Below, one piece after another: positions 12,500 to 63,120 of a DNA stretch of 64,000 nt (positions within the stretch are counted from its first letter, which is position 1; each line of letters starts with the position of its first letter). The DNA comes from Cloeon dipterum. Its lineage: Eukaryota > Arthropoda > Insecta > Ephemeroptera > Baetidae. Where the stretch lies: NCBI RefSeq assembly GCF_949628265.1, contig NC_088787.1, positions 27,394,501-27,458,500 on the forward strand, written 5' to 3'. Below the pieces are notes generated by a model that saw only the letters and a program-made list of their open reading frames with translations, searched no databases and was not told the DNA's origin. A program made the position numbers and the translations under genes.

Positions 12500-14355
12500 C
12501 TAAATCAAGTAAAACAATTCTAAAATCAAGACAACAAGGTATGGGTGGCATTTCATGACGGTAGAGTTCTGTTTGTACTGCAACTTTCGGCCGTTGAGCT
12601 GCTGGACTGGCCGCTTGTTGTCTGACAATGTTGAATTCGTCATTCCTTTGATCTTCTGAAATTCTTGGAGCTGCAAACAAAACTTTATTATTTGCAGTTT
12701 GATATTTATTTATACATGGAAAACTTAAAAATTTTGGTCACTTAAAAATGCAATTTACATTTAGAACTTGGACAAGCAGATAAACGGAACTTCCATAGGG
12801 AAAAATTTGCATTTACGCGGTTTAAATGGTCTGACCAAGATTGAGAGGACCCTACAATTTTTAATTCGACAACCACCCGCAGGTGGTCGATGATCAAAAT
12901 GACGCCTCTCATAGTTACCAATTACCTCAATTCACCAATGAACTGCCTTTCTCCTAGTGGCATCTGTCGCGATATAATACACATTAAAAATACAGAGGAG
13001 TACGAGAAATGGAATTTTCCCATACTGATTGATATTTACCGGTATCAAGCATTGATGCAATTTTCCCAATTTTCAATCGCGAGACAAAAAAAGAAAAAAT
13101 ATTTTTTTTACCTCTCCAGGACCTCTTTAAAAGAGTTAAATGTGAAATAGTTCATACAAACCTGACTCTGTCCTATTGGGATTGGATTCGCCATCACAAT
13201 CCAGACGACATTTTCTGTACATGGTGGATTTGTCAGGGACCCCACGTACGTGTAATACGTTTCTTTGGTGCAATTGCAGTCTGCACTTATAAACTTCTTC
13301 AGCCAGCCCATGTACCTTCCACTCTGCAGAGGCTGCATAGACCCACCGTCGATCACATTTTTCAAATTACTCACTATTGGATCAAGTTCCGATAGGTTGT
13401 ACTTTTGGTTTATCTGCAGAAAATAAACGTCTAATAATGGAGACACGCTTAGACTAATAAAAAATTACTCCAAATAAAATGGAAACGATCGCAAATCCAT
13501 CTTGCTCCCTCGTGGCCGCGTCAGGGGATTGGGTTGACTTTTTGAAATGAATAAGCTGAGCTTCTAATCCGTAACTGCAAATGGAAAGTGTATTAAAATT
13601 CATTCAAAGCGAAGATAAGAAAAGCAGAGATATTAAATTACAAGACATTTTTAAACAAAAGATCTGTCAGTTGCAATTCATGATTAATCAAAAATGCTGG
13701 AAATTTAATTTAAATTGTATTACAAGTATTTATCGATGGAGTGCTCGCTGCCCAATTCGTTGCCCCATTTGAAATTAATGCTTGCTAAGACGTAATCGCT
13801 AAGCAAAGGACCACCTCTTATTCTGGCCTCTGGCAGAGACTCTGGTCCAAGCACCAGTTGAACTAAAGCAACAAAGAAACTCCGTTAGCGTGTTTGTAGT
13901 TGACATTTCCAGTTAATCTATTATGCATACCTCCTTGCCAGTTGTTGATAAGTAAACCTGTGCGAGCCGTGTCATGGAATTCAGACCACACCAGTGCGGG
14001 AAAGTCGGCTTTTGTTGCTGAGTTCTTGTCAATGTCGATCGGAGATTGCTTTTGGCCTCCGCAAGTGGCGTATTTTTGAGCCCAAAATGTCGGTCCTTGA
14101 AAATTGATAAATGAAATTTTTTATTTTGGAACGCTTTTAATTTACATTTAGTGTAGCTCCAAAGATTTATAATTGAACTTACCATTTTTGGTGTCAGAAT
14201 AGCTGAAATCGGGTAGTTGGCTGATAGGGAACTGGGCTGCACCTTGCGAAATAACTAAAAAAGGGCATCAAGTGAGGATAAACTGCATATGCGTCTTGAG
14301 CAAAATGTAACTTACATGAAAGGAGTGCAAGAAGCACACTTGTATCAAACTTCAT
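12500..14355 (-). CDS. CA-1: alpha-carbonic anhydrase-like protein lacking all three zinc ligands
   Basis: Seven exons (14355-14316, 14254-14183, 14095-13931, 13862-13724, 13574-13469, 13413-13162, 12670-12500), 314 residues, all phases consistent. It starts with a signal peptide (MKFDTSVLLALLS). The CA fold is clear: CGGQKQSPIDI, GSEHSIDKY, GSLTNPPC and RPVQQLNGRKL. In CA II numbering the ligand positions read N94 (SINFKWG), K96 in the same motif and Q119 (LEAQLIHF), so none of the three zinc histidines is present. Thr200 is Asn. The gating residue Glu106 (GSEH) and the extracellular Cys pair (TCGG, PPC) remain. The protein ends in a hydrophobic run (YLVVLILELFYLI), like a GPI-anchor signal or tail anchor. 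It is predicted to be an extracellular, acatalytic CA-related protein. The open frame and seven sound introns argue against a pseudogene. Confidence 0.9.
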
Positions 14356-14639
14356 TGTTTTCTTGCAAACATTTGTAGAGAAATCACTTCAGTGTCAGGA
14401 GTAGACTGCGTTTTAACTAGTCAACTAACGAGAATAGAACGGAAAGTGTAGAAAAAATCAATAAAGTCCATTATGACATAATGGAAATAATTGCCGTGCG
14501 TCGCTTTTTGTGTCTCTGCTGCTGCATATTGTATAAAAAGTTCGTAATTAAATGTGCGGAGTTTCAGTAAATGGAGGACAAATTTAATGGAAATGCGGTC
14601 GTTCAGTGCACGTCACGAGTTTTATTTAGATCAGCAAGT
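14356..14639. other. CA-1 / CA-2 intergenic region
   Basis: About 284 bp between the CA-1 start codon and the CA-2 stop codon. It must contain the CA-1 promoter and the CA-2 3' UTR. I see no clear TATA element in the right orientation. Confidence 0.45.
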
Positions 14640-17600
14640 TTATTTGAATACAAAAATGAATATCTGGATGCTTGTGAAAACGATGATGTGCAGAGTTGAA
14701 ATTTCGTCTGCCCTGGAATAGTTGCAATAGAAAATTTGTCTACCGTTTCGGAGCTGTATGGGCCGCCGGTTTTGGATCAGTGGGCCCTCACTCGTACGAA
14801 CCTTTTGAAAGTCTCTTATCTGAAAACGATTTAAAAGATTTTTAATCAAATGTTTATAACTATGTTTATATATTTCAGAAGGAAATTTAAAAAGTGTACG
14901 CGTTTTTTATCAATGATTAAATATCGGAGAGGATTTAAGGTAGTCTTTTGGGGTTTAAGAGATTTTTAGACAGCTTTGATGATAATAATATGATACACGC
15001 AGTAAAATTTGGTTTTGCAATTTCTGGGGGATTTAAGAAACATCCAGAAATTCCAGGCTCAATGGAAAAATTGCAGTTTCAGAATTTAATTTTCACCTGT
15101 TTAATTCCAATTGTGTTCGGATTTTCCATAACGATATAAGTGACCATTTCGTTGCACGGTGGGTGAGGCAGAGAGCCAGCGTATGAGTAATAATGATCGA
15201 TGTAATTGAAGTTCTTGAGCCACATCATCGCGTCACCGTAGAGTGGAATGCTTGAACCCGGATTGCGAATACCAGACAAACCCGCGACGAGCGTGGCCAT
15301 GCCCATGTTATTTTTCTGGGACGCCTGCGAAGCGTGAAAATTCAAAATTAGAGACTACTTGCTGCACCGTGGCGTTCAGCAGGTTGCATAACCAATGATT
15401 ACAATAATTAGCATGTCGTTGGCATTTTAACTGTCAGAAATAGTTTCATATATTAGTTATCACGATTGCAGCTGTGAGTGTTGAATGAAATCTCAACACA
15501 CCACTTTACTTTTCAAGTTGTTATTATTTTTCTCTTAACTTAAGTTGAGTAGTGATTAAAAAATTTATTTTTCATGGCTCGGCGAAAGTTAAGTGCTCTC
15601 TTTGAAAGATTTGATTAAGCACCGTTTGTTGGTTTCATATCAAGCGTTTTTTTATTTAAACATCACTATTTACCGTGAAAAATATAGCAACAATAGCGAT
15701 TCCATCCTGCTCTTTGGTTGCGTTCACATAGCTCCCATAGCGTCGTTTGTAGTGCACCATGTGAGCCTCCATACCAAAACTGTTGACCAGGATTCAAATT
15801 AATCAAATCGATTTGCCAATTGGCATCTATAATTACAAGTGTTTCTCGATGGAGTGGATGCTGCCTGTTTCGTTGCCCCAGTAAAAATTCACATGTGAGA
15901 GCATGAAATCGGTTGGAAGAGGCCCTCCGCGCAATCTTGGCGGCCCGTCGCCCACGAACTGCACTTGCACTGCAAACCGATTTGAAATATTCAAATCATT
16001 TTAGTAATATTTCTTTATTACCTCCTTGATATATGTTGGCCAAGATGAATCCTTCGTCCCTGACATCCCAGTGTCCTTCCCACCTCAGGGGCGGGTACGA
16101 GACTCCAACTAAAGGCACGTCCGAAAGTTCAATTGGTGATTGCATCTTTCCTGCACACTGCGGGTTTGACGATTGCCAGGAACTTGGGCCTAGATGATAA
16201 TGTGGTTAATAATTTTCATTGATTTTTTTTACAAAATATGTTTAATTTGTTAGATGGTCGGAGGTCAACTTCTATTCACTTTGTTATGTAACGGATTTTT
16301 TTAGGACGGGGAAAGGGAATTAAATCTTTCTAGAATAGCTACAGGTTTATCTGCCCATGCTCTGCTGGCAAATATTTATCGACTTAATTCGAATCCTGTT
16401 GGCATTTTGTAAATATGCTTAAGAAGCGCTTTCAGTAGCGCTTTGAAGTAAGCCTTTTTTATTATGGGCAATAATTATCTTGGCTTAACGGCATTGTGTT
16501 TTCTGAGTTTAACAATTTTATTGCACGCTCAAAGGGATTGAATTTGATATGAAAATCAAACAAAAGCAGAATATGTACTTGACATTTATCTCAACATTCT
16601 TGTAAAAGGGAATCCCCTAATTAGGTTACTATCAGCATTTAATTGTGCTTATTTATTTAATTATTCTCCATTAAATTCAAGAAACCATTATTATTATTAT
16701 GTCAACCAAACATCACAAAAATATAAAATCAGGAAAAACACAGTTTTTTACTGGAAACTCCGGAATTTTATCTTTAGAAAAATTCATTTCATTTATTTCA
16801 AACCCATTATTTTAATTTGTAAATTGCGGAGTAGAAAGAAGTGATTTTACAAACTTTTCTTCAAGACCTTAACTATTTTTACATTGATTTACAGATAGTT
16901 TAATTTTTTTTTTATATAACTTACTGAAATTTTTTCAGTAAAAATGATAAAGACTATAGTCATAATTATGTTAGTCGCCCTGCTTTAGTAAGACCCGATT
17001 GCTAATTATCCTTGCCAAATCGTGTTCATTTTGGCTCATATATTAAATTTCACGAGTTAAAATATGAAGCAGTAAAAAAATGGACGAACTTGGTTTATGC
17101 TGTCATATTTTAAGTGCTTTGAAAACAAAGGCAATTCAAAAGCGCAATAAATGCCGGAGGGTAGTATTGCTACAAAGATATTGATTAAAAGCCGTTTTTA
17201 AAATTTTATTTGCGATGCAGCTATACGGGTGGATTTTGCGGATTTGGGCGTCCCGAGCGGCAGATTCGATTCACAAGAGCGAGGGGCGGCCAATTACTCC
17301 GCAAACATCAATATGAGCGAGGCACGAATTGTACGCATGTCTGCTTGCTCTGGCCTATCTGATGGACGCGAATCACGCAAGCAAGTAGACAAAGAGCGGC
17401 CGAAACGACTACCAGGGTTGTCACAGCACGCTGACCGACCCCGAGGCTCGGTTTCATTTTTAAGTCAAGGTTGCCCGTCAGGAAGGCCAATTAAACGGAA
17501 AATAATTGATTCCACACTGCTTGCGTAAATAGGTCGAGTGCGAGATTCGATTTTTCCCATACCGAGTGGGTGGACGAGGTTGTCCGCCTAATGACTCTAA

Positions 17601-18742
17601 CGTGCGAACAGGCTTGCCCAATTTTATTTCGTCTGGCGCGTAATTAGACTGAGCAAGTCACGCTTACTATTATTGGTGATTGCTCTTTGTTGGACAAGAT
17701 GTTAATAAAATCATTTTGATTTCAATGCATTACTTATTGAAGTTTAAAACCAGGAATTAAGATATGATAAGATTTATAGAAAAAAATGAATGAACCAAAT
17801 TAAATTAACGATCATTATCAGCTTCTTAAAGCTTTTTGTAGAAACATTTGATTTATCAATCAAACAAAGTCAAAAATCTTGAATAGGAGCAAATAACGTT
17901 GTGTGACCCACAATCAGCTAATTATTGTATTAAGCCACCAGTTTCAATAGAGCAGATTTCACTTACAGTTAATGATGAACAAACACGCTATTTAAAATGA
18001 GTTCAATTCAAAAGAAATGCAAACATTGACGTTTTGGTTGCTTCTTTGTGCTTCTTAAACCTTAAAAGATTCCCTTTTTTAGATTTTCATTTCATTGGAA
18101 TTATCATCCTTCCTGTTCTTTAACTTATTTCCTTTACTCTTTGATGGGATTTTTATTTGGTGTCCTAATGTTTCATTGTACCAAAAACTCCTTAGAGCCT
18201 GCGAAATAAATCTGCTTTCAAATATTATTTCTAGTTATTGCCAATTGATTTGTTGGGGAGGAAAATGAATAAAATCAACTGATGAAAATTATGAAGATGG
18301 TACAAAATTTAACGCAATCTTTTCATTTTTTGCTTCTCTGAGCTGAATTTTAGAAGCAAATCATTTGTGCAAAAAAAGAAGCGATGAAAAGCTTTAGATA
18401 ACTATGCATATTATTTACCATTTCCTCCATTTAAAGAGTAGGTGTAATCTACGGGTGTGATGGGTGGCCCCGGGTTGTAAGGCGGTGCGAACGGCTTGTT
18501 GGGATCCGGGGCTAGAGTGCCCGAAGGATTGTTGGGGTCGGGCTGCGGAACATCAGGGGGCTGCGGGATTGGGTCACTCGGAGGGGTTGGTTGCTCATCT
18601 TGCCTCTTTAGTCTCTTGGCTGCCAAAACTGATAAAATGCTGCTAAAATCGGCAGGACATGAAATATTGCGATGCTTAACTTACTGTGTTTGGCGAGTGT
18701 GAAAACCAAAATGAGAAAAACGCCGCTAATATGCAGCTTCAT
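14640..18742 (-). CDS. CA-2: proline-rich, zinc-ligand-deficient carbonic anhydrase-like protein
   Basis: Exons 18742-18685, 18628-18419, 16189-16022, 15969-15837, 15779-15674, 15324-15097 and 14819-14640 encode 360 residues with exact phases. After a signal peptide (MKLHISGVFLILVFTLA) comes an extension of about 55 residues rich in Pro, Asn and Asp (for example PIPQPPDVPQPDPNNP), unlike the other five genes. The CA domain follows (QSPIELSDVP, GGPLPTDFML, DAMMWLKNF). In CA II numbering the ligand sites read N94 and Y96 (VNFYWG); only H119 is kept (MEAHMVHY). Glu106 is Ile (GSIH), and Thr199/Thr200 are Pro/His (GSLPHPPC). Catalysis is therefore not expected. A hydrophobic C-terminus (LHIIVFTSIQIFIFVFK) suggests a GPI or tail anchor. 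Intron 2 is 2.2 kb. It may act as an extracellular binding or scaffolding protein; this is inference. Confidence 0.9.
16190..18418 (-). other. Intron 2 of CA-2
   Basis: This 2.2-kb intron is AT-rich except for a GC-richer island at about 17220-17660. That island holds a minus-strand frame starting at 17460 (MKPSLGVGQRAVTTLVVVSA...) with a hydrophobic N-terminal segment. I could not join it in phase to the next CA-2 exon, so it is not called as an exon. Nothing else was recognised. Confidence 0.4.
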
Positions 18743-18906
18743 GTTTTAGGCATGACCAATGGTGCGGATAATGGGTGCATAGTAGGGTACTCGCTACGGC
18801 CGGGAACACGGCGTGTCACAAACTGAAAACCATTAAGCCGCTCGGGGGCTCTGTCACGAATTCTATCACTTTGTGGGATCGCGAAATCGATCGCCAGAGA
18901 GCCGTG

Positions 18907-18912
18907 TTTATA
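18907..18912 (-). promoter_or_regulatory. TATA-like box upstream of CA-2
   Basis: TATAAA reads on the minus strand about 165 nt upstream of the CA-2 start codon at 18742. The distance would mean a 5' UTR of about 130 nt. Support is motif and position only. Confidence 0.35.
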
Positions 18913-19150
18913 AAATATGTTTCCCGTAAAAATAGCTAAATAACGGCGTCGCCATAAAAATCCGATAGCACACGACATCAATTATGTTATATAGCAGTTA
19001 CTTCAAGGACGGGTAAAAATAGGTTCCATTGGTTGTAATTTTAATTTGAAAAAAACTCACGTGACTAAATTTTGTAAATTTTTATTTTAAATCTGAAACA
19101 GATGGTACATCAAGTTTGTTTTTTAGATCTTTTATTCAGTCGAAGTTGGT

Positions 19151-21835
19151 TCATTTGTAGCTTAAAAGCATTGTAAATATGAGATAACACAAGATTAAGC
19201 CACTGGAGGGCTGGAATTTTGCTGAGGCGCTGGAATCCGGCCACGAGTGAAACACTTGTCGGCCTTTAAGTTCCTGAACAGGTCGCACATTGGTCGATAT
19301 TGTCCCGTTGTGGCCTTTCAGCCTCTTGAATTCTTCTATCTGCAATCAAAAGAAACATCTCAAAAACATTCAGATTATCAGCTGTCTGAATGCCAGCACT
19401 TAAGAATAAAAATTCTGCCTTCCCCTTATCTCCTTGTTGGAAATTTTGAGAGCAATAATTTGCACTTCAAATTATTGATTTTGACTTTTAGCTCGCTAAA
19501 TCAGTTATTAAAAAAGAGCAGTAGTTGATATCAATTAAAATACGCGTTAAATTTATGAAAATCGATAACGTTAAAGAATTTTGGGCTCAAATCATAATTT
19601 GAAGCTTTAGCCCAAACCCCGCATGGGTCCAATATCTCTACTAAAAACTTTGAATAAATAAGAATTAGGAATTTATTTGAGAGTATGTAAATCAATGAAT
19701 TTTTAGTGTTTGTTCATTTGTGGTGACAAAAATAACCCAATTAAATAGACGATTCGTTGAATACCTGACGCTCCCCAACGATGGCGGGCTCTTTCATCAC
19801 GATCCAGGTAACGATCTCGCTGCACGGCGGCGTGGTGAGCGAGCCCAAATACGTGTAGTAGTTCTGCATGTCTGAATAGCCCTCAAGCCACTCCATGGCG
19901 TCTCCGTTGATTCGCGTCGAGTTGTTTCCCTCAATTATTTCCTCCAATTTACTGACGATTCCATTCAACTCGGGATTGTTGCCCCTCGAGCTCTGACGAA
20001 AATACACACACACAAATCAATACAAACATTCTTCTGAGCACAAATATTTTGCCTACTCGGAAAAAAATGCCGACCACGACCAGGCCGTCCAGGTGTCCAG
20101 CGGCGGCACTGACGGAACCGTACTCTGCCTTGTAATGCACCAAATGTGCCTCCATGCCGAAACTGAGGTTGCGTAAATGTTTCTCAGATTGTTGGAAAAA
20201 TGAATCAAGTTTATACTTACAAGTGGGTGTCCAGGGAATGTTCGCTACCTTTGTTGCCTGAAGTTCCCCAGTGGAAATGAACTTGAGCCAAGATGTATTC
20301 AGCGGTCAAAGGTCCTCCCTTGATAAAAGGCAATTCTCCCATGTACTCAACCTCGGCTGCAGATTGCAAAAAGAAAGTGTTTTTAACATTTAAGTAAATG
20401 AATATCCTTGTTTAATCGAAATGATAACTCAATTCTGGACGTGTCAATAAGGACACGCGATTACGACTTACAATTATTGTCCTCATTTCATATTTTCGTA
20501 GGCTAATAGAGACGGACATATCATATCATTTCGCGTATTAGCTCACAAGAGATTAAATTTGAGAAGGACAAAATGTAAGTTAAGACATGCGAACAAATTA
20601 TGTCATTGATTGCGAAGGCTGAATTTTTGCTCTCACCAGAGTGCCAGGTGTTTCTCATCATAAAACCTTCTTCTCGGTTGTCCCAATGTCCGTACCACTC
20701 CAAAGGTGGAAACACGGTTGAAATGCTGTCCACGTCGTCTAAATTGATAGGTGATTGTCGCTCCCCAAGGCAATCATCTCGCCACATTGGTGGTCCTTAT
20801 TAATCAATGATTTTAATTTTAATTTCTCGTTCTAAATATTATAACCTTAAATAATTATGGTCGAAATAAATTGAGTAAAAAGCAAAAAGACATTGAGTAT
20901 ACCAGATTTTGAACCACATAGACATATTTTAGTCAGTTTCAAAATAGTTAAAATGTGTTTTAGGAGGGCAACAGCCCCATACATTAACACAATGTGTAAA
21001 TACGCACAAACCATTTACAATTATCCATGCCATACACTAGCTTTCAACAACATGCCTGAATTTTTATTGATTAAATTTGCGGTAACTCGAAAAAACCAAA
21101 TGCACAAAATTTAGTACTTGAAAAGCTCTGAGTCCAATAATGAAAATGACGAGGCTCAATCAATGTAGCAAGATATTTATTTCAGCAGTTCATCTTATAG
21201 ACTTGATCATAACCATTTATAATTTAAATTTTATACTATCATATTATTTACTAAAATTAATCATTGCTTATATTTTGCCGACATATTTTGAAAAATATAT
21301 AGATGAGCAGTTTTATTTTGAAAGGTACTCTATTTCCCGTTATAAACTTACATCGGTCTAAACTGATGTAAATATAATTTTCAAGATGATTTCAATTTCG
21401 AAAAAGCATTCTACCTCAATTTCAAGAATATTATTATCAAAGAGAAATATGTAATAAAATAAATAAATAATACTGACTTCCCCTTTTCAGATCTTATCCT
21501 GTTACAGTTATGATATGCTATTTTATAGCATTTAATTCGGCAGATATTAGGGATATTAGTGAAATCGTTTATACCGCTTAGTTAGTCATAAGTCATATAT
21601 GCATTGACAAGAAGAAAAACAAAATTTGTCTCACCAACGGGTGCCTTCATGTCATAACTGTAGCCTGTGGCATTCATGATCACTTTATCGCTGTACTCGG
21701 TCCCGCTGGATTGAGGCACTAACATATTCAAATACAAATTTAGCTAGGAGCAAAATTTTTCTAAGATTTAAAATTACACATGCCCAGTAGCAGGTAACAA
21801 AGCAAAAAATAGACGAGGCGCGGGTTTCCTGCCAT
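19151..21835 (-). CDS. CA-3: catalytically complete, GPI-anchor-type alpha-carbonic anhydrase
   Basis: Exons 21835-21778, 21718-21635, 20795-20637, 20356-20221, 20162-20057, 19992-19765 and 19339-19151 give 319 residues in phase. It has a signal peptide (LVYFLLCYLLLGM) and a complete CA active site: H94 and H96 in QVHFHWG, E106 in GSEH, E117 and H119 in MEAHLVHY, and T199/T200 in GSLTTPPC. A His falls at position 64 (NTWHS), the usual proton shuttle. The disulfide cysteines (DDCLGE, PPCSE) are present. The C-terminus has small residues (SSASAK), a spacer and a hydrophobic run (GLILCYLIFTMLLSYK), the pattern of a GPI-anchor signal as in CA IV. It should hydrate CO2 on the outer cell surface. 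It is the only cluster member with every catalytic residue, including His64. Confidence 0.94.
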
Positions 21836-22600: not shown

Positions 22601-22690
22601 GAAATTCCCAGCTCATTGGCTCGCATTGTAAAGGCTTTTTCAGGAATGTCAAAGCAGTGGGAGATATTTTAGCAGTTCGGGGAAATAATT
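22600..22690 (-). pseudogene. Isolated CA fragment, similar to 25120-25200
   Basis: About 75 bp are clearly related to 25120-25200: both share cattggctcgcattgt and gtcaaagcaRtgggagatatt. On the minus strand the second copy reads LTMRANGLAFWYPY in one frame, which resembles the strand leading to position 64 at the end of CA exon 3. The exon assignment is an inference; the repeat itself is plain. Confidence 0.45.
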
Positions 22691-22870
22691 GTTGAGCTCC
22701 GCTTAGAAAAAACTCTAAATCTCCAACAAACCTTGCTGAAGCCAATTAACCCATCGTGACAAAAAATTTTTTAAATAGGTTTCTCTTTTAATAAAGCAAG
22801 ATGTGAATATGCCGTTCGACATTTTTTTATTCCATGTTCAAATTTCGGTACATTTTAGTAAACGTTCAAT

Positions 22871-23820
22871 TCATGGAGCCTTAAGGCTACCGCGGGCGCA
22901 CATAATCACCCTGTCGTTTAAATTTTGCACATCGCGCCTTGCTTCAGGGATGGGAACGTTATCTGTATTCAGCAATGTTCTAAATTTCTGCACCTGTAAA
23001 AGCATTTCAAATGAAATTCTTTTGTGCACCCAGACTCGCACTGCCCTTTACCTGAGCTGCGGATATACCGATGGTCTTATGCATGACTATCCAGTTAACG
23101 ACTTCATTGCAGTCATGTGTGGTCAAAGAGCCTGGATAGTTGTAGTATCTGAATGTGGACAAAACATCGTCGAGCCAGACCATTGCGTCGGAGTCAAGCG
23201 TAGCTGCGCTCGAACTTGGATTAGGTATGCTGGTCAATTGGTTAACGATTTTGTCAAGTTTTGGATTGTCAGAATTTTGCAGCTGAAAAATGATTATAGT
23301 GATTATACATATGAAGCTAACTCCGCTTGTGTGTTAGATAATTTGTAAATGTTTTGAGTTCTGGGATCAAAATCTTAAAAAGGTTTGAGAGAAAAACGGA
23401 CAGAATTGGAAAAGGAATTTCGAAAAAGAAAAATCCTATGCAGAACAAATTAAGAGTAAAAACTGATTTGGGGTAACACATATGTTTTGAATTTTTCAAA
23501 TATATTCACCGCAAAAATAACTCCAAACACAGCAAGACCATCGGTTTGTAAAATTGCTGCTTCTAGGTCGGCGTAGATGCTATTCTTGTGAACAAAGTGC
23601 ATTTCTAAGGGCCCACTGAAAAGGAACATTTAATCAATCAGACTTTTTGCAGAGGGTGAAAACTTTATATTATATACTAGTTTCCAAATTGAGCATGCTC
23701 AGATCCTTGCGCGTTTGTTGGTCCCCAGTGGAAGTGTGCTTGCACTAGATCATAATGGCGATCCAGGCGGAAGGGGTCCACCGTACATTAAAGGGGCTGA
23801 GCCAACGAAATTAATTTGAG
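22871..23820 (-). pseudogene. CA-4-like pseudogene containing only exons 4-7
   Basis: This block is a duplicate of the 3' half of CA-4. Exon 4 is 23820-23678, exon 5 is 23615-23510, exon 6 is 23282-23052 and exon 7 is 22993-22871 (TGA). Exon 4 is 143 nt against 142 in CA-4, because one extra base near 23755 (cgccattatgatc against cgtcatatgatc) shifts the frame and gives an early TGA before the zinc histidines. Exons 1-3 are absent; instead a piece of a different CA pseudogene abuts at about 23866. Exons 5, 6 and 7 are open. Homology to the CA-4 locus runs from about 22708 to 23866 (matching about 26755 to 27929). No functional enzyme is expected. Confidence 0.88.
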
Positions 23821-23866
23821 CTGCAACGCAAAGAAATTTTTGAATGAGAGTTTACACAAATGGACC

Positions 23867-25200
23867 TGTGAAAAAAAGACACGTCAATATTTCCAATGCA
23901 GCACGTGTGTCCCGATTTTCACCTGGTATCTGCAAATGGCCAGTGCCGTGCGAAACAAACTACGTCACGATTTCAACGGCGGCGGCGATAAGTAACCTTT
24001 GTAGGCAAGAAAATTTTTGTCGCTCGTCAGGTGCGGCAGCGCAGCCACTGCATCGCGTCTTTGTCTTGATAGTTTGATATTTGTGAGTTTGCTGATGATT
24101 TCGCTCAATTCTTGGTCGTCGGTGTTATTGATCTAAATTTTTCGTTTTATCAGTTCTAATTTAACCCTTACTTGATTATTACTACACAGGTTATTAAATT
24201 CATAAGTTTTAATTTTATAGTTTAATATTTTATTCAAGATGTAAAAGAATAAATTGAAGAAAGCGTTTTCAACTTATTCTTCGTTGAAATATACATGACA
24301 CAACTGAATTTATTTTTAAGGGCGGTACCTTAAGCGACAGCGACAAGGCCATCAGAAAACTTGCTGGCATTTTTAATGACCCGTAATCAGTGCGGAAGTA
24401 CACCAAGTGCGCTTCCATATGCCGTAGCCGTAGCTGGTAATGGAAATTAAATTCTTGAGGAAAAGCAGTCCTGTAATCAAATAACATGCCCGCTTGAAAG
24501 ATATATGCACATGTTTTGAAGGTGTGTCAAAATTGGCATTATATAATTATTGCTGGTTGTTATTTGATGAAGACACAATAATATTCGATACGGTTATGGA
24601 TTGTTATTAACTAAAATTCATTTGACATTTGCGAACCATATCCGAAAGATAAAACTCTAATTTTTTCTAACAAAACTTTTTCTTATGAAAATTTTCTAGC
24701 CAGCACTTACAAATATATTTCAAATCATTTAAAACACTGTAAATTACTGCTGTTTTTACTCCACAAATGACTTCTTTCTAGACTATAGAGATCATTTTGT
24801 GATTTCATTTTATTTTGCAAATTTTACACCAACAAATTATGGTCGATTTACAAATGGAAAAATTATGCGTGTGAGGACACAATCTTATTTTTAAGATATT
24901 GAAAAAACTGTTCCTATATATTATTGATTGCATGTTCACTTCCCTCGTCGCCACTACCCTAGTGGAAGTGCATTTTTGCAAATATGTAGAAACCTTTGAG
25001 AAGTTTTTCTGCCGTGGTCGACTGTCGGCTGCTCCCAGAGAAGAATATTTCAGCTAATTTACAAAGCATATATCACAAGAACGGCTCGATTTGTCTCTGT
25101 TTATATGGATACCAGAATGCCAGCCCATTGGCTCGCATTGTTAAGGTATTCTCGGGAGTGTCAAAGCAATGGGAGATATTTGAGCTGTTCGGGATATAAT
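23867..25200 (-). pseudogene. Decayed CA gene (exons 3/4 to 6), second lineage
   Basis: Running down the minus strand, an exon-3-like remnant (about 25200-25080) is followed by exon 4 near 25020-24910. There the frame reads KMHFH, then a stop where the invariant Trp should be, then GSGDEGSEHAIN. Exon 5 near 24420-24320 reads MEAHLVYFRTDYGS, then is out of frame up to SDGLVAVAL. Exon 6 near 24125-23900 reads LSEIISELSNIKL, then KGSLSPPP, and resumes one frame over as EIVTWFVLH. The segment 23867-24490 is a near copy of 34026-34690. The exon-6 break is shared by both copies, so it predates the duplication. Exon limits are approximate. Confidence 0.78.
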
Positions 25201-25351
25201 ACTGGCTGCCCAATATTAGAGATGGAAAAAGGTGGTTAGTTAATTAATTAAGTGATTCGAAATGCTCAAATAGCTCAACGGGCTGGGAGGACTTGCTGGT
25301 TTTCGCACTATCCAGCGGTTTTAGGGAAAAATGTCTGGCTATTCAATAAAA

Positions 25352-25483
25352 GACCTCTGCGCAGGGAGGCGAAAAGATTGTCACATTGGGCCCAAGCTCC
25401 TCTGCGTCCCATATTATCCGCACCGCGATGTTATTGGGACCCGCGGTGAGCTCAGAGCCCACGGGAAGTGCTGAGCAGAGGTT
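25352..25483 (+). mobile_element. MITE-like dispersed repeat, copy 1
   Basis: It begins GACCTCTGCGCAGGGAGGCG and ends GCTGAGCAGAGGTT. The ends form an imperfect terminal inverted repeat (ACCTCTGCKCAG). The core has CCCATATTATCCG, then ATGTTATTGGGACCCGCGGTGAGC. The same element appears at 29.15-29.29 kb and 52.06-52.21 kb. It has no coding capacity, and I could not identify a confident target-site duplication. Confidence 0.65.
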
Positions 25484-26916
25484 AAAAAACATATTATTTC
25501 ATTTGATATTAAATGCAGCTCCCTCAATGTTTAGTGAGCTGTTCATTTCTCCATTTTTTATAGAAATTTATTAATCCTATATGAATACGGAAAATTGAAA
25601 ATGCTCGCCTAGCACCGTGAAAACCTGCATTTCCTTTCAGCTGAAACCTCATGATATTCTTGAGTGCGTTCGTAAGCGACAGAAACAAAAAGTATATATC
25701 AATATTATTAAGTGCTGATAAAATTAGAGAAGAAAAATCCATTTAATTAAAATGCACTTCATGTTTAACTTTCCAATTCTAAACTTTCAACATCAAAATA
25801 TTTTTTATGCAAGCATATATTAGCTGCGAAATCTCATCTTAATAAAGAAATTATTAAAAAAAATCATTCATCAAAAAGTGAGAGCCTCCCCGTAGGCCTC
25901 ATCAGCAGTAAGTTACGTCCAAAACAAAATTCATTACCGCAGTATTAGCTGCAGAAAATTTTTGATCAGCGATCGTCGAAAACATCCGGCTTTGCTCATT
26001 GCTGAGAAAAATTGTAAAGAGGATACGTGTGACGATCTTCTCGTCACTCATCCTTCCGGTGATTTAAACCTTCCCTCACAAATATTCACCAGCTTAAAAA
26101 TACCACCCATTCTAATGAAAAGCCTGAAAAGCTTATTTCAAAGTGTGGGGGTGTCATCCAGCGTAATCAAATAAGTGTGAATTAATTCCTTTTGGTCGTT
26201 GCGATTTATTGAAGTCCATAAATTAGAATTTATTAGACTGATATATATTTTTACAACAATTATAATTATGCAATTAGCGTTTCAATAATGTAGTTGTCAC
26301 AGTAAATAGAATGGTCTTGCCCTGGTAACGTCTTCCGATGTATAATAATTACAACAGTTTTTGCTGCTCGCTTGAACGGCTCCAATGGCCAGAGAGTGTG
26401 TTGATAGTGACATGACCAGGTGAGCGGTCAGTAAGGAGTTTTACTCAGGGTAAAGGAGAAATGCTTATCATACTTAAAAGTGACACCTGGCGATCCGTAC
26501 GAGAAATAAATACAATCACGAGTATTTGTGGCGGGACGCCTACAAGAGAGAATTCTACTGCGAGAATGTGTTATTTAATTTTTCCTCGCAGAATTTTCAC
26601 AATTTTCTGACCTCATCCCGAAAAAATTATGATCCGTCCTGACTTCAAATATAATAAAGTTGGAAGAATCATTTAATGAAAGGAACGCATCATTGTAATA
26701 AAAAATGAAATAAAAAAAGATAAAGTTGCATTGTGTAGCTCTGCTTATGGTTAGAAAACTCTCTAAATCTCCATCAAACCTTGCTGAAGCCAATTAACCC
26801 ATCGTGACTAAATAATTTAAATAGGTTCCTCTTTTAATAAAGCAAGATGTGAATATGCCGTTCGACATCTTTTTATTCAATGTTCAAGTTTCGGTACATT
26901 TAATTAAAAGTTCAAA
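25484..26916. other. Non-coding region between the CA pseudogenes and CA-4
   Basis: I recognise no gene here. A short motif (aggcctcatcagcagta, about 25895-25911) recurs near 37880. From about 26755 the sequence matches the 22708 region, as part of the CA-4 duplication. Confidence 0.45.
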
Positions 26917-28774
26917 TCATGGAATCGACTCTGGAGCTGGAGTAGCAAGGCAACCGCGGGCGCACGTAATCACCCTGTCGTTTAAATTTTGCACAGCGCG
27001 CCTTGCTTCAGGGATAGTATCGCCATCTGCATTCACCAATGTTCTAAATTTATCCACCTGTAAAAGCATTTCAAATGAAATTCTTTTGTGCACCCAGACT
27101 CGCACTGCCCTTTACCTGAGCTGCGGATATACCGATGGTCTTATGCATGACTATCCAGTTAACGACTTCATTGCAGTCATGTGTGGTCAAAGAGCCTGGA
27201 TAGTTGTAGTATCTGAATGTGGACAAAACATCGTCGAGCCAGACCATTGCGTCGGAGTCAAGCGTAGCTGCGCTCGAACTTGGATTAGGTATGCTGGTCA
27301 ATTGGTTAATGATTTTGTCAAGTTTTGGATTGTCAGAATTTTGCAGCTGAAAAATGATTATTTATATAAGAGTCAATAGTGATTATATGAAGCTAATTCC
27401 GCTTGTGTTTTAGGTAATTTGATTGGGAGCAAAATCAGTTTTTAATTAGAGAAAAACAGACCTAGTTTGAAAAGGAACTTTGAAAGAAAAAAAATCATAG
27501 GCAGAACAAATCAAGAGTAATAATTTGATTTGGGATAACACACTAATATTTTGAACTTTTCAAATATATTCACCGCAAAAATAACTCCAAACACAGCAAG
27601 ACCATCGGTTTGTGCAATTGCTGCAGTGAGGTCGGCGTAGGTACTCTTCTTGTGAACAAAGTGAATTTCTAAGGGTCCACTAAAAATGACATTTAATCAA
27701 TCAGCCTTTTTGCAGAGGGTGAAGAAAATATTATATACTAGTTTCCAAATTGAGCATGCTCAGATCCTTGCGTGTCTGTTGGTCCCCAGTGGAAGTGTGC
27801 TTGCACTAGATCATATGACGATCCAGTCGGAAGGGGTCCACCGTACAATAAAGGGGCTGAGCCACCGAAATTAATTTGAGCTGCAATGCAAAGAAATGTT
27901 TTGAGGTGAGTTTATAAAAATGCGCCTGATTAAAACAGGATGTAAACTCACAAAATATCATTTAAAAGGAAACTAAGAACGAATAAACAAGAACAATAAC
28001 AATCGTGTATTTTGAAATTTGTGTGAAAAATATATAATCAGTATCTCCTGGAAGGACGAAATTATGAGTCCCAGGCCCAATGCTGCCAAAATGACTCTAT
28101 CTTCTTTAATTTCAAATGCTCATTTTTTATGGTTAATAACGTTTTTAGCTTAGTGTGTATTGAAATTTAAGTTGATTTCTGTACAAATAATGTTTCTCAC
28201 CCGTAGTACCGGTGTTAATCATGGTAAATCCTTCAGATCTATTAATGCTGTGTCCCTCGGTTCTTAGCGCAGTCATTGTGGAACGAACGCAAAAATTGAT
28301 ATTGATGGGAGACTGCCGAGTTCCATTGCTGCAGTACAGTCCTGCAAAAGTGTAAAAAACCTATTCAGGTATAGGGTTTTAATCAAACCTGCAAATTAAG
28401 GATCGTGCTATGAAAACATCTTGGGAGGATTTTTTATGCTTTTGTGCCTTTCTTAAAAAAATACAAATTTTTATGCTCACCACTTGCAAAACTGGATATA
28501 TTGCTTGTCTGGCTTACGTAGGGTTGACGTGAATCTGGATCAACTCCAAGCTCAGGATCAATCATGACATGCCCACGGGCCTGTATTTGAAAATAAAAAT
28601 AAAATACTTAGTGGCTATATTTTACCAAAAGGAAAATTTAACACCAGATGACGAGTTATAAGTATAACCGGACTAGGCTTATATAGAAATATTTGAACAA
28701 TCCTATTTTGTTCAAATTTTAGCTCTTACCTTGAACCATAAGGTCGTAAAAATTAACAACAAAGCAGAATGCAT
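26917..28774 (-). CDS. CA-4: secreted alpha-carbonic anhydrase
   Basis: Exons 28774-28730, 28580-28481, 28341-28201, 27880-27739, 27679-27574, 27346-27116 and 27057-26917 encode 301 residues in phase. After a signal peptide (MHSALLLIFTTLWF) there is a short linker ([10 protein letters not shown]) shared with CA-5 and CA-6. The CA domain includes YCSNGTRQSPINI, the zinc ligands in QAHFHWG and LEIHFVH, GSEH, and Thr199/Thr200 in [14 protein letters not shown]. In that motif the usual PPC is replaced by HDC. Position 64 is Thr (NTGTT), so the His proton shuttle is missing. Extra cysteines (NFCV, TCARGC) could form a second disulfide. There is no hydrophobic tail, so it should be secreted. Exon 6 and its downstream intron are almost identical to the pseudogene at 23.1 kb. 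Confidence 0.93.
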
Positions 28775-28837
28775 TGCGCCAACCACACCTGAATTATGGT
28801 CAAAAGGTTATGTGTGTGCGTTGCTTAATCATGGCCG

Positions 28838-28845
28838 TATTTATA
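28838..28845 (-). promoter_or_regulatory. TATA box of CA-4
   Basis: TATAAATA on the minus strand, 64 nt upstream of the CA-4 ATG. Comparable TATA boxes lie 39-50 nt upstream of CA-5 and CA-6, so these three genes appear to share a TATA-driven promoter with a short 5' UTR. Confidence 0.65.
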
Positions 28846-29145
28846 GTTGCGACCACACTCCTTGCATGAAAAAACTGGGGGGAGAAGGGAGTTATCACTC
28901 ATTTCGACCAATAAAATTTTATTTTGCACGTCAACCGATAGCTCCAAGGTAAGGGCACAGGACCCTTTTACATATGTGTAATAAAAACAAATATTTACAT
29001 CATGTTCAGAAAATTCAATTTTTTGTAGTGTCTCACATTGGTTGGTGTTGCATGAGAATTCCTTCCTTAATACGTACCAGTAAATTCTAATTTATTTTGA
29101 TTTTCTACTTAAATATAATATATTGTTGATTTATATCATATATTT

Positions 29146-29286
29146 AACCTCTGCTCAGCAAGCACATGTTGTAGGCTGTGCTCACCGGGTCCCAAGAATG
29201 CCGCCGATCGGGCGGATAACATGGGGGCCGAGTGCAGAAGAACTAAAGCCCATTTTGGCCATCATTTCGCCTTCCGCACCGAGGTC
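29146..29286 (-). mobile_element. MITE-like dispersed repeat, copy 2
   Basis: The reverse complement aligns end to end with the copy at 25.4 kb. It starts GACCTCGGTGCGGAAGGCGAAA, has a core CCCCATGTTATCCGCCCG and TTGGGACCCGGTGAGC, and ends TGCTGAGCAGAGGTT. It sits between the promoter side of CA-4 and the 3' end of CA-5. Confidence 0.65.
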
Positions 29287-29565
29287 TTTTTTTTATTGAC
29301 ACGCCAGAAGCCCTGAAGCCGCTGGAACGGTGCTAAAACCAGCGAGTGGCGAGTCGGCGCAGGTGCGCCTCTCAAAGTTTTTGGAAAAAATGCAAAGCGA
29401 TTAATTAAATGATTGGCCGCACTGGGAGGAAAGGAATGACCCTTACTGTCATGTCAAAATAAGACAAATTATGCACACTCTGCGCGCACACTTAGATAAA
29501 ATACATTAGCGAATTCTTAGGAAATTAACAATAAAAATTTTCCATACACTGAAAATATTTTTATT

Positions 29566-31186
29566 TCAATGGAACCTAGAGGTATCTTTTCTTGCACATT
29601 TAATGACTCTGTTGTTCAGATTTTGGATGTGGCGCCTATATTCCTCGATGGGATAGCCATCCTTTCCGATCAAATTCCTAAACTTGGCGACCTTAAAAAT
29701 TAATTTCAACTGTAGCTAAAAGCCACACTAGAAAATAGGTTTTTGTCGTTACCTGCGCCGCTGAGATTCCAATTTTCCTCTTCATGACGATCCAGTTGAC
29801 GACTTCATTGCAATCTCCTGTGGTCAACGAGCCAGGATAGTTGTAGTACTGGAAAGCCGAGATTACTTCATCAAGCCAGACCATAGCGTCTTCATCAAGC
29901 GTGGTTGTTGTGCCCTCCGTTATGATGTTAGCTAGATTTGGAATAATCTTATCAAGCCTCGTGTTGTTAGTTGCTTGCTCCTGCAAAAAAATACAATTTT
30001 ATTTCTCAATACAATCAAAACTGAATCAAGATTATACAGAAAATATAATTCCAAACACAGCCAGGCCGTCTGAATGTTGGATAGCTGTCGCTAAGTCACT
30101 GTATGTGCTCTTGCGGTGAACAAAGTGGATTTCTAATGCACCACTGAAAGCAGTAGATGATGAAATACGCAAATACTTGTGCCGAAATATTTAAATATAC
30201 TAGGTATCGTGAATAGCGTGCTCTGTTCCTTCTACGTTGTCATTCCCCCAGTGAAAATGCGCCTGTACAAATTCGTAGGTGGAATCTTTAGGCAGTGGAC
30301 CACCTGACAATGTTGGCACTGGAAGCCCGTTATAGCTAATTTGAGCTGTAAAAATGATTTGTTTTATTTGAGTAATCTTTTTGGTATATTTTTAGTTGAA
30401 ATATATTAATATGCTTTTTTACAAAGTAATCCTTATCGTGTATTAAAAAATTAAATCGCAACCTCAAAATGCATTCATTACGGAACCATGCAGTGAGAAT
30501 TTAAAAAAAAACATTTTTTAGGCAAGCTAATAATTTCATGATGTTGGATTTTGAATTCATCCTTGTTATTATTTTAACATGTATCTACACTTTTATAGTG
30601 AGAATAAACAAACAAATAAATAAATTTAGAAAAAATATTTCTTACTTATAACTTTTAATTAACTTGGTTAACTCAAGATTTTTCAAAATTTCCCAATTGC
30701 TCAGGTTTTTTAGATTTCATTCTTAGCTAGTGGGATTTTAATTTTGTTTTATGATTTATTTGAAGTCATCACTCCTCGTACCTGTGCTTCCAGTGTTCAA
30801 CATAGTAAAACCCTCAGGCCTAATATCACTGTGTCCTTCAATTCTAAGAGCAGACAAGCTTTTCTGGACACAATAGGGGATATCAATAGGAGATTGACGT
30901 GTTCCGGTGTTGCAGTATAGTCCTGTTACACAAAATCAATACTGGCCTTCAATATTTTTTGTTTAAATATAAATTACCAGTTGCTGACAATCCATTTATG
31001 CCACTTGTGTCCACATTGGGCAAAAGTGTTTCAGGATCTACTCCCAGCTCTGGGTCAACGATAACATAGCCATTGATCTGGAAGCATGTATGGGCATTAG
31101 GAAAATAATAACAACGTACGTATATTCTTCAAAAATCTCACCTGCACAACGCAGAGGGTGATGAACGTTGCCCATTTGTACATCAT
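29566..31186 (-). CDS. CA-5: secreted alpha-carbonic anhydrase
   Basis: Exons 31186-31142, 31077-30978, 30922-30782, 30345-30201, 30143-30038, 29980-29753 and 29691-29566 encode 296 residues in phase. It has the same plan as CA-4: signal peptide (MMYKWATFITLCVV), linker [15 protein letters not shown] domain with YCNTGTRQSPIDI, zinc histidines in QAHFHWG and LEIHFVH, E106 in GTEH, and T199/T200 in [14 protein letters not shown]. Position 64 is Ser (NTGST), so it lacks the His shuttle. The tail (NNRVIKCARKDTSRFH) has no membrane segment, so a secreted enzyme is expected. Intron 4 begins GTATAT, an unusual donor also used in CA-4. Confidence 0.93.
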
Positions 31187-31235
31187 TTTGCTGGCGTGTT
31201 CGTTGATAACTTAATCATTCACGGAGATGGCTCTC

Positions 31236-31243
31236 TATTTATA
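31236..31243 (-). promoter_or_regulatory. TATA box of CA-5
   Basis: TATAAATA on the minus strand, 50 nt upstream of the CA-5 start codon. It is identical in sequence to the box before CA-4. Confidence 0.65.
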
Positions 31244-31978
31244 CGGTTTCCTTGCGGTGAGATAATCTCCATAGAAGGACCTTTGTGGTTTTGGTGGTTG
31301 GGTGAAAAAAAAATGCATCAAGTGTACTATCTTGCTGATTTAAAAGTACCATGAGTACTACTCTTGCAATGGAAAGGGGTTCAACATTGTTGATATACAA
31401 ATCACTGATAGGAATTTTGCGTTCAATTTTCTCGCAAATCAAACGGACTTTCAGTAATTTGTCATGTGGCAGCGTTATCTAATTCGGTCGTTAAACCAAA
31501 CTGTCTGGAACAATCACATGCTCATCTCGTGAATATGATTGGAACGAACATAAAGTGCTCGTGCATCCGATGGGAAAGCGCAAAGGTCTTGAAATTTGAG
31601 ACGCAAAATAATATCGTGTCAAAACAGTGTATGGTGGCCGGCACCGAAAGCTTTTACAGTTTAGTATAATTCGTTATAACTATCACTTCTAACAATTTTT
31701 CCTCGAGCATGAAAAATCAAAATAAGAAGAATTAAACTGAAAAAATTGTATATATAGGCCTCATCATTAAAAGTATCATGCAGCACAGGAAATGTTTGCG
31801 ATTGTCTCATAAACTATTTGTTTTCATAAAGTTTCCTGCATGAGTAAATCTTCATTTTTGTTTTGAAAAATTAAACTAACATAATGTAGCAATATTCCGA
31901 CTTCCAGGGAGATTAGATCATTAAAAAAATTGTCTTGACCATCCAGTTGATATTTTCTATTTAATTTTCAATTTAAAA
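31244..31978. other. CA-5 / CA-6 intergenic region
   Basis: About 735 bp with no recognisable coding or repeat feature. It contains the CA-5 upstream region and the CA-6 3' UTR. Confidence 0.45.
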
Positions 31979-33309
31979 TCACACCATAGGAAAAACTCTG
32001 GGGCACTTGATTTTTCTGTTGTTTAAATCTTGCACCTCGCGTCTGTATTCAGTAATAGCCATACCATCTTTGCCAATCAACTTTCTGAATTCTGCAATCT
32101 TTTACACCACACATTTTTAAACATACTTTTTCCTCTCAAAACGATATTTTTACCTGGGTTGCAGAAATTCCAACTCTCTTCTTCATGACGATCCAGTTGA
32201 CAACCTCATTACAGTCACCGGTAGTTAGCGATCCAGGGTAGTTGTAGTAGCGGAAGGGCGAGAGAGCATCGTTCAGCCAGAACAAGGCGTCTGCATCGAT
32301 TCTGGCTAAAGTTTTAGCAGCTCTGATTTCAGCCAATTTTGTAACAATTGGGTCAAGTTTCGTGTTATTCCTTTCTTGCTCCTGATAGTTTAATTGTAAG
32401 ATTGAGTAAATCAACTAATAATAAAAATTACTCACAAATAAAATGATGCCAAACACAGAGAGACCATCCTGATATTGAATTGCAGTTTCTAGGTCTGGAT
32501 ATGAACGTTTGCGATGAACAAAGTGCGCCTCCATTGCTCCGCTGTCGTATAAAAAGCCGTAGCGCACGCAAGGCAAAGAAATGCAAAATACTCACTATTT
32601 CCCGTGTACGGCATGTTCTGAACCCTTTGCATCCGACTCTCCCCAGTGGAAATGTGCCTGCACAAGGACGTAAGTGGATCCCCTGGGCAATGGACCTCCG
32701 GACATTGTTGGTTCATTGCCACGATAGTTGATTTGCGCTGAAAGTAATACCGTCTTGAAACTTATATGTATTCAAAGATAAAACTGACCATTTCAGAAAA
32801 CTAACACTTTTTACCATAGATTTTCTAATTAAATAAATATTTATAATAATTTTCTAAATCAATCATTTTAACTTTCTGTAAAGATTAATTAAAATTTAGA
32901 AGTAATCGCGTTTTTTACCAGTGCTTCCAGTGTTCATAATTGTAAAACCTTCAGGTCTGATTCTGCTATGTCCTGTAGTTCTCAAGGGAGGAATATTTGA
33001 TCTTATGCAGGAATCAATGTCAATCGGAGATTGGTGAGAGCCGTTGTTGCAAAACAGACCTGCACAAAGGATGAAAAATGGTTTTTGATATTAAATAAGT
33101 CTACATTTAAATTGTACCTGTTGCTGCGAACCCAGGGCCCATTTCCACATAGGGTAAAAATGTTTCAGGATCAACTCCCAGTTCTGGATCAACCGTTTCA
33201 TATCCATGAACCTGTGGTTTATCAACTTTTTACGAGTTTTTATTCAGAAAGCCGAAACTAATACCTGCAAAGCCCAGAGTGAAAGAAAAATGGCCCGTTT
33301 AAAAATCAT
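31979..33309 (-). CDS. CA-6: secreted alpha-carbonic anhydrase
   Basis: Exons 33309-33265, 33211-33118, 33059-32919, 32737-32596, 32541-32436, 32381-32154 and 32098-31979 encode 291 residues in phase. The signal peptide is [15 protein letters not shown], and the linker [13 protein letters not shown] is shared with CA-5. The catalytic set is complete for zinc: QAHFHWG, GSEH, MEAHFVH and GSLTTGDC. Position 64 is Ser, so no His shuttle. The extra Cys pair (DSCI, KCPR) matches CA-4 and CA-5. There is no hydrophobic tail. CA-4, CA-5 and CA-6 form one subgroup: same exon plan, DPELGVDP linker, NEVVNW motif and TATA promoter. Confidence 0.93.
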
Positions 33310-33347
33310 TTCACCTTCCTTCCAGGTGTGGTCCGTGCAAGCGACTG

Positions 33348-33354
33348 TTTTATA
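33348..33354 (-). promoter_or_regulatory. TATA box of CA-6
   Basis: TATAAAA on the minus strand, 39 nt upstream of the CA-6 ATG. Confidence 0.6.
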
Positions 33355-33939
33355 CGCCTATTGTGGGGATACACTCTAATTATCCAAGGTTTAGCGGTAA
33401 AATACACTTGTGATTTGCGTTAATATAGTTTATGCACTTTAAATTATCTAGATATGGAAGTGCTTCCAACTGTCCCTAGTACATGTTGTCAAACAATTAT
33501 TATCCTATCATTCCTCACCTTGTGAGGAATGGAAATAATTGCAACATTGACACAAAGCAAAGAGATAGACACGCAAATATAGTTTGAAACTTTAGTTAGA
33601 TGGTTCGTGGCCTCGGGTTAAAATTGTTTATGATCCCCACCTTTTTATTAAAACTCATACAAAATTAATTGTTCAATTCAAAGTGTAATGATAAAAAGCC
33701 TTTTTTGGTTTTAATTAGATTTTTTTATTTACCAAACTAACAAATATTTAAAATGTGATGGTTTTGCAAATTATAAAAAGTAACCTGATTTTGTCTCTCA
33801 AGAAGCAAACAATCACCGCTTGACGATTTTATCTACGGGAGACGAGCGTTTTCAATGATCCCTCTTTCATTAAGCGTTTTTCAAACTCTATACCCGCGAT
33901 CTCATCTCAATCTGGGGTCCTTCTAAAAAGGGGTACACC
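33355..33939. other. CA-6 upstream region
   Basis: I see no gene in it. It contains the CA-6 upstream region and runs into the 3' end of the decayed CA copy at 33.95 kb. Confidence 0.4.
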
Positions 33940-34690
33940 AAATTCATCGCGCATTTTGCATTTCTATAGTGGCCTTCTGTATCAGCTCTCTCTATCTTCA
34001 TGCAATAATTTTCTGAACTCGTTGACCTGTGAAAAAAGACACGTCAATATTTCCAATGCAGCACGTGTGTCCCGATTTTCACCTGGTATCTGCAAATGGC
34101 CAGTGTCGTGCAAAACAAACCACGTCACGATTTCAACGGCGGCGGCGATAAGGAACCTTTGTAGGCAAGAAAATTTTTGTCGCTCGTCAGGTGCGGCAGC
34201 GCAACCACTGCATCGCGTCTTTGTCTTGATAGTTTGATATTTGAGAGTTCGCTGATGATTTCGCTCAATTCTTGGTCGTCGGTGTTATTGATCTAAAAAT
34301 GTTGGTTTTATCAGTTCTAATTTAACCCTCACTTGATTATTACTACACAGGTTATTAAAATTCATAAGTTTTAATTTTATAGTTTAATATTTTATTCAAG
34401 ATGTAAAAGAATAAATTGAAGAAAGCGTTTTCAGGTTATTCTTCGTTGAAATATACAGGACATATTTGAGTTCAACTTTAAGAGCGATGAAAAATATAAG
34501 TCCTTCCTTGGTACCTTACTCAAAAGGGCGACGACAAGGCCATCGGAAAACTTGCTGGCGTTTTAATGACCCGATTATAATCAGTGCGAAAGTGCACCAA
34601 GTGTGTCTCCATGCCGTAGCTGGTTAAGGAAATTAAAATATTTACGAAAAGTAAGCTTTTAATCAAATAACATGCCCGCCGCTTGAAAAC
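33940..34690 (-). pseudogene. Decayed CA gene (exons 5-7), parent-type copy of the 24-kb pseudogene
   Basis: On the minus strand, exon 5 near 34620-34515 reads YGMETHLVHFRTDY and then loses frame before the usual DGLVV. Exon 6 near 34290-34095 reads LSEIISELSNIKL and KGSLSPPP, and after a frame break EIVTWFVLH. Exon 7 begins at 34026 as VNEFRKLLHEDRES and hits a TGA at once. I found no exons 1-4 upstream. About 660 bp (34018-34690) are highly similar to 23860-24490, and both copies carry the exon-6 break. This copy retains the exon 7 start that the other lost. Confidence 0.78.

Positions 34691-59481: not shown

Positions 59482-63120
<3,639 letters not shown>

Follow-up and report, generated by a model that had tools for sequence, protein, structure and literature searches.

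The 64,000-nucleotide stretch of Cloeon dipterum DNA analysed here, hereafter the window, carries six alpha-carbonic anhydrase (CA) genes, CA-1 to CA-6, on the minus strand between 12500 and 33309. We consider it likely that this array represents a tandem cluster of extracellular alpha-CAs that is old and lineage-specific, shaped by ordinary sub- or neofunctionalisation and requiring no dedicated new system. Such a cluster would have grown by tandem duplication, and its members would still be exchanging sequence by gene conversion. CA-3 is predicted to act as a glycosylphosphatidylinositol (GPI)-linked CO2 hydratase at the cell surface, and CA-4 to CA-6 as soluble, secreted zinc enzymes that would be slower without His64, with a proton transfer that would depend on buffer and a pocket rim possibly reshaped at the former Pro201-Pro202. 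CA-1 and CA-2, in turn, would descend from a single ancestor without zinc binding, and may now serve as surface-bound binding or structural proteins.

Gene models and active sites

The array comprises the following genes (aa, amino acids):

12500 to 14355, minus strand: CA-1, 314 aa, 7 exons; all three zinc ligands substituted, Q64, hydrophobic C-terminal tail
14640 to 18742, minus strand: CA-2, 360 aa, 7 exons; zinc ligands partly lost, H119 kept, hydrophobic tail
19151 to 21835, minus strand: CA-3, 319 aa, 7 exons; complete alpha-CA, hydrophobic tail of GPI-signal type
26917 to 28774, minus strand: CA-4, 301 aa, 7 exons; zinc ligands present, T64, HD at 201-202, without hydrophobic tail
29566 to 31186, minus strand: CA-5, 296 aa, 7 exons; zinc ligands present, S64, GD at 201-202, without hydrophobic tail
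31979 to 33309, minus strand: CA-6, 291 aa, 7 exons; zinc ligands present, S64, GD at 201-202, without hydrophobic tail

CA-3 was assembled manually and then used as query for spliced protein-to-DNA alignment of the other five genes, with the 5' exons taken from a reading of the strand. All six models have an intact frame from ATG to stop, and all 36 introns have GT-AG borders, although these were required of the models and are hence partly there by construction. The start of exon 2 in CA-2 is ambiguous, with two possible acceptors in the same frame. Each model matches the Pfam family PF00194 (E 0.001 or better), CA-1 for instance with 204.3 bits (cut-off 27; E 3.3e-60). An earlier note on this DNA had described six models on one strand sharing one exon plan. 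Six minus-strand genes were indeed rebuilt, and the sizes that it gave for exon 5 (106 nucleotides (nt) in all six) and exon 6 (228 nt in four, 252 in CA-1 and 231 in CA-4) were reproduced exactly. The common plan holds for the number of exons, but intron 1 interrupts the frame differently, with phase 1 in CA-1 to CA-3 as against phase 0 in CA-4 to CA-6.

Active-site positions were located by motif in CA-3 and transferred to the other genes by alignment, using the numbering of human CA II. CA-3 displays the full set of H64, Q92, H94, H96, E106, H119, T199, T200, P201 and P202, the latter two within a PPC motif. His94, His96 and His119 are likewise complete in CA-4, CA-5 and CA-6, so that four array genes retain the zinc site. 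CA-1, on the other hand, has lost all three histidines (Q64, N94, K96, E106, Q119, T199, N200), and CA-2 two of the three (Q64, N94, Y96, I106, H119, P199, H200), and both correspond to an acatalytic CA-related protein (CA-RP) in the broad sense. Glu106 and Thr199 are present together in CA-1 and in CA-3 to CA-6, leaving CA-2 with Ile106 and Pro199. The proposal that zinc ligands and His64 coincide in CA-3 only is thus correct among the six array genes, where His64 occurs once, while five CAs outside the array also possess H64.

The alignment also recovered the substitutions that had been indicated for CA-4 to CA-6, with Thr (CA-4) or Ser (CA-5 and CA-6) at position 64, and with HDC or GDC in place of PPC, namely HD at 201-202 in CA-4 and GD in CA-5 and CA-6. 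All three keep H94, H96, H119, Q92, E106, T199, T200, V121, V143, L198 and W209. We considered whether these are inactive proteins, and rejected this on present evidence, as the zinc site is complete and Glu106 and Thr199 are present; CA-4 to CA-6 are better read, from their residues, as slower or altered enzymes. The idea that surface and secreted, active and inactive forms have diverged within 22 kb is consequently sustained in part: anchor-tailed and tail-less, as well as zinc-ligand-bearing and zinc-less forms do lie side by side, but CA-4 to CA-6 do not belong with the inactive ones.

The predicted protein ends separate the same two groups of three. A hydrophobic, signal-peptide-like N-terminal stretch is found in all six (best 11-residue mean 1.94 to 2.78). 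At the C-terminus, the best 13-residue Kyte-Doolittle mean reaches 2.55 in CA-1, 2.64 in CA-2 and 2.52 in CA-3, as opposed to 1.15, -0.33 and -0.08 in CA-4, CA-5 and CA-6, confirming that hydrophobic tails are confined to the first three. This contrast fits anchored CA-1 to CA-3 and soluble CA-4 to CA-6. Of the two cysteines that mark extracellular alpha-CAs, Cys23 and Cys203, CA-1 to CA-3 have both; in CA-4 to CA-6, Cys203 is present and the distance between the first cysteine and the QSP motif is greater by one residue. Additional cysteines follow the SPI motif in CA-4 to CA-6, and others lie close to the C-terminus; a second disulphide is possible. CA-2 contains a Pro-rich N-terminal extension of approximately 50 aa in exon 2 (18419-18628), downstream of a KRLKRQ motif that resembles a pro-protein cleavage site.

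Relatives in the genome, age and constraint

The bantam microRNA family, a marker of arthropods, is represented in this genome (74.4 bits, cut-off 61), and the 120-base ends of eight 600-base stretches from contig ends are free of TTAGG arrays. A genome-wide search with PF00194, in which all 56 candidates were scored, returned at least 43 exon-level matches, a lower bound, distributed over the array and nine other places. We read the latter as probably six further CAs (L009, L010, L013, L014, L015 and L021) and three CA-RP-like loci, each observed as an exon pair (L011/L012, L016/L018 and L019/L020) and labelled as such by motif. The off-array models are partial, and column 106 of L014 is unreliable. 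His64 is present in L009, L010, L013, L014 and L015; L021 has Gln64, so the loss of this residue reaches beyond the array. Hydrophobic tails comparable to those of CA-1 to CA-3 recur in L013 (3.07) and L014 (2.43), again as 13-residue means. Exon sizes recur as well, with exons 5 and 6 of 106 and 228 nt at L009 and L013, and of 106 and 225 nt at L021. Equal exon sizes were therefore rejected as a sign of recent duplication, as they reflect an ancestral plan that is uninformative in this respect.

Some of these loci deserve separate mention. L021 (G000:C2:24728500-24736000) is situated on the same contig as the array, 2.7 Mb away, and has complete zinc ligands besides its Gln64; with CA-1, CA-3 and CA-6 as queries it aligned best with CA-3 (482), the top score among the off-array loci. 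Two of the CA-RP-like genes are oppositely oriented and separated by about 36 kb (G000:C4:9648714-9663247, plus strand, and 9699732-9704084, minus strand), and an exon seen in both has nearly the same sequence.

The CA tree was built from 12 rows, leaving out the three CA-RP-like loci and the decayed copies described below, and a second tree was obtained with 13 active-site columns removed. CA-4 to CA-6 form a clade with support of 100/100 in both trees, and CA-1 and CA-2 group together with 96/92 when all columns are used. Considering this grouping and the common Asn94, a single shared loss is the simplest reading, and CA-1 and CA-2 probably lost catalysis once, in common, and have since remained under purifying selection.

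Pairwise codon models were fitted to seven of the 15 possible array pairs, and omega=1 was rejected in each of the seven, with a gain in log-likelihood (lnL) of 32 to 67. The pairs among CA-4, CA-5 and CA-6 gave an omega of 0.10-0.15 (lnL gain 62-67). CA-1/CA-2 also gained 38 over omega=1, despite saturated synonymous sites. The divergence of this pair ran to its bound (t = 40), and that of CA-2/CA-3 likewise reached the bound. Among CA-1 to CA-3, synonymous sites are saturated and aligned protein identity is 38-40%, and on these grounds we rejected a recent origin of the active/inactive split; the saturation indicates that the functional division is old. Only the decayed copies and a tract of conversion look recent.

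The long stem branch of CA-4 to CA-6 (1.59 and 1.53 changes per column in the two trees) raises the question whether these three, and perhaps CA-1 and CA-2, were recruited from CO2 to another chemistry or to binding, a scenario which partly overlaps with the neofunctionalisation that we favour. The replacement of Pro201-Pro202 in the trio agrees with it, the other nine aligned genes having PP in eight cases and PE in L014, as do their altered N-terminal segment and the conserved extra cysteines. The zinc ligands, E106, T199 and other site residues are however maintained in all three, which points towards retained zinc hydratase chemistry, and we regard recruitment as unlikely.

Somewhat less credible still is a regulated extracellular CO2/bicarbonate module, in which CA-1 and CA-2 would be anchored decoys or competitors that tune CA-3, CA-4 to CA-6 would be soluble partners, and a transporting epithelium would express all of them together. 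Zinc-less and active forms that have anchor-type tails do adjoin, omega=1 is rejected for the zinc-less pair, and a competitor has already been proposed for secreted CA-related proteins of cnidarians (PMC4981384). The zinc-less pair and the shuttle-less trio are nevertheless separate old lineages, and duplication alone accounts for the tandem position.

Decayed copies and a near-identical tract

As the earlier note had it, decayed copies are interspersed in the array, and we found them at 22871-23820, 23863-24988 and 34024-34679. The elements are as follows:

22871 to 23820, minus strand: decayed copy A, a CA-4-like gene represented by exons 4-7; an extra base in exon 4 breaks the frame
22994 to 23282, minus strand: tract in copy A, intron 6 and exon 6; near-identical to CA-4
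23863 to 24493, minus strand: decayed copy B, another CA reduced to remnants of exons 5 and 6; duplicate of copy D
24923 to 24988, minus strand: remains of a decayed exon 4, interrupted by an in-frame stop; lies upstream of copy B and probably belongs to the same decayed gene
27058 to 27346, minus strand: tract in CA-4, intron 6 and exon 6; near-identical to copy A, a putative gene-conversion tract
34024 to 34679, minus strand: decayed copy D, duplicate of copy B; remains of exons 5 and 6, interrupted by stops and a break in the frame

With the CA-4 protein as query, exons 4-7 were recovered in copy A, and no exons 1-3 of CA-4 type beside it. Within the tract, CA-4 and copy A differ by a single mismatch in 289 sites, in contrast to 103 in 861 (12%) across the other segments, a deviation with P of about 4e-15 if a uniform rate is assumed and for a tract that was picked post hoc. 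Since the near-identity extends through the intron part, selection at the protein level is not its cause, and recent gene conversion between the pseudogene and the intact CA-4 appears to be the simplest reading. Copies B and D agree in 96% of 440 aligned columns, and in the next 157 the identity falls to 81%.

A repeat outside the exons accompanies the decayed block (22608-22689 and 25120-25200, 85% over 82 columns). Together with the correspondence between 22703-23874 and 26751-27935, it suggests that the two copies differ by the insertion or deletion of approximately 1.5 kb (25230-26750). Beyond the array, a scan of eight neighbouring reading frames gave a Pfam match in five, among them the formyl transferase PF00551 and the lipoyl protein ligase A/B catalytic domain PF21948, matched by frames at 11631-12092 (plus strand) and 58783-59553 (minus strand).

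The decayed stretches inside the same 22 kb could be taken as a sign that several of the six genes are dying and that the array captures gene birth and death in progress, without special function, but six frames are intact and omega=1 was rejected in every pair tested, and we give this little credence. Rather, intact frames beside decayed stretches count for the tandem cluster that we favour. Equally improbable, in our judgement, is a self-tuning extracellular CO2/bicarbonate locus, in which an anchored fast enzyme, soluble, buffer-dependent shuttle-less enzymes with a remodelled pocket, and two anchored zinc-less decoys or scaffolds would be kept in step by conversion.

Several observations weigh against an old tandem cluster of extracellular enzymes and should be set beside it. 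The gene models derive from genomic sequence alone, and the tract and the duplicates were read from the assembly as it stands, in which these stretches may be misassembled. The support for CA-1 with CA-2 drops to 90/87 when the 13 active-site columns are removed, and their codon fit, being at the bound, is usable only for the rejection of omega=1. L021 is placed among the array genes (76/82 in the full tree, 71/79 without the active-site columns), and a clade of CA-1, CA-2 and CA-3 is without support (49/2). An array-only clade is neither supported nor rejected (approximately unbiased (AU) test, p 0.316), leaving the array not established as one clade; its members may have been brought together by other routes. 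GPI attachment and secretion are predictions from hydropathy, and the probable cleavage regions of CA-1 and CA-2 are weak by eye.

Comparison with known carbonic anhydrase families

Expansions of this kind have precedents. Of the 30 alpha-CAs of Daphnia pulex, 25 bear signal peptides for secretion (PMC2689847). These extracellular CAs are described as having radiated from a GPI-linked ancestor, with four members that would have regained GPI sites and many in synteny, and extracellular CAs and CA-related proteins occur in tandem on one chromosome (PMC4393933). The Daphnia pulex genes (CA6A-H and CA7A-Q) and the array are both expansions in aquatic arthropods, of CAs with signal peptides or, in the array, signal-peptide-like starts; members are secreted or GPI-linked in Daphnia (PMC4393933; PMC2689847), and putatively so in the array. 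The Daphnia radiation has 25 members as compared to six in the array, whereas zinc-less members and the change of Pro201-Pro202 are features of the array that are not described within that radiation in the parts of PMC4393933 compared.

Cnidarians have evolved secreted zinc-less CAs more than once, in some cases in tandem with catalytic CAs, and a role as acatalytic competitor was suggested (PMC4981384). SpiCA14/13, SpiCA9/12 and Nve6/7 share with the array that extracellular zinc-less CAs adjoin catalytic relatives (PMC4981384), but they belong to another phylum and presumably have an independent origin, while the array pair seemingly goes back to one loss and has anchor-type tails. The earlier note's idea of an undescribed system, for example regulated extracellular CO2/bicarbonate handling with inactive partners, is not new in its essentials: secreted acatalytic CAs in tandem and their competitor role had been put forward in cnidarians (PMC4981384), and the Daphnia radiation was known (PMC4393933).

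CA-3 resembles GPI-linked CAs of the vertebrate CA IV and CA XV type (PMC4393933) in three features, its signal-peptide-like start, Cys23/Cys203 and hydrophobic tail. Compared with solved structures, its best 60 of 242 matches consist entirely of CA II chains or variants, which has little bearing on membership. CA-1 and CA-2 have in common with the CA-related proteins VIII, X and XI that they are without zinc ligands; they differ from these in signal-peptide-like starts, in anchor-type tails and in grouping with array genes, in a tree without the CA-RP-like loci.

No description of the array was found in the open-licence literature on carbonic anhydrases, as far as its consulted parts go. The array with its zinc-less pair and its trio devoid of Pro201-Pro202 appears to be new, while gene-family growth of this sort is known from Daphnia and from corals and other cnidarians. 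It adds an arthropod case to the cnidarian and Daphnia patterns, and offers within one arthropod locus a compact natural series of a full enzyme, a shuttle-less enzyme with an altered threonine loop and a zinc-less paralogue, which would allow direct tests of the roles of zinc-less extracellular CAs and of proton-shuttle loss in secreted CAs.

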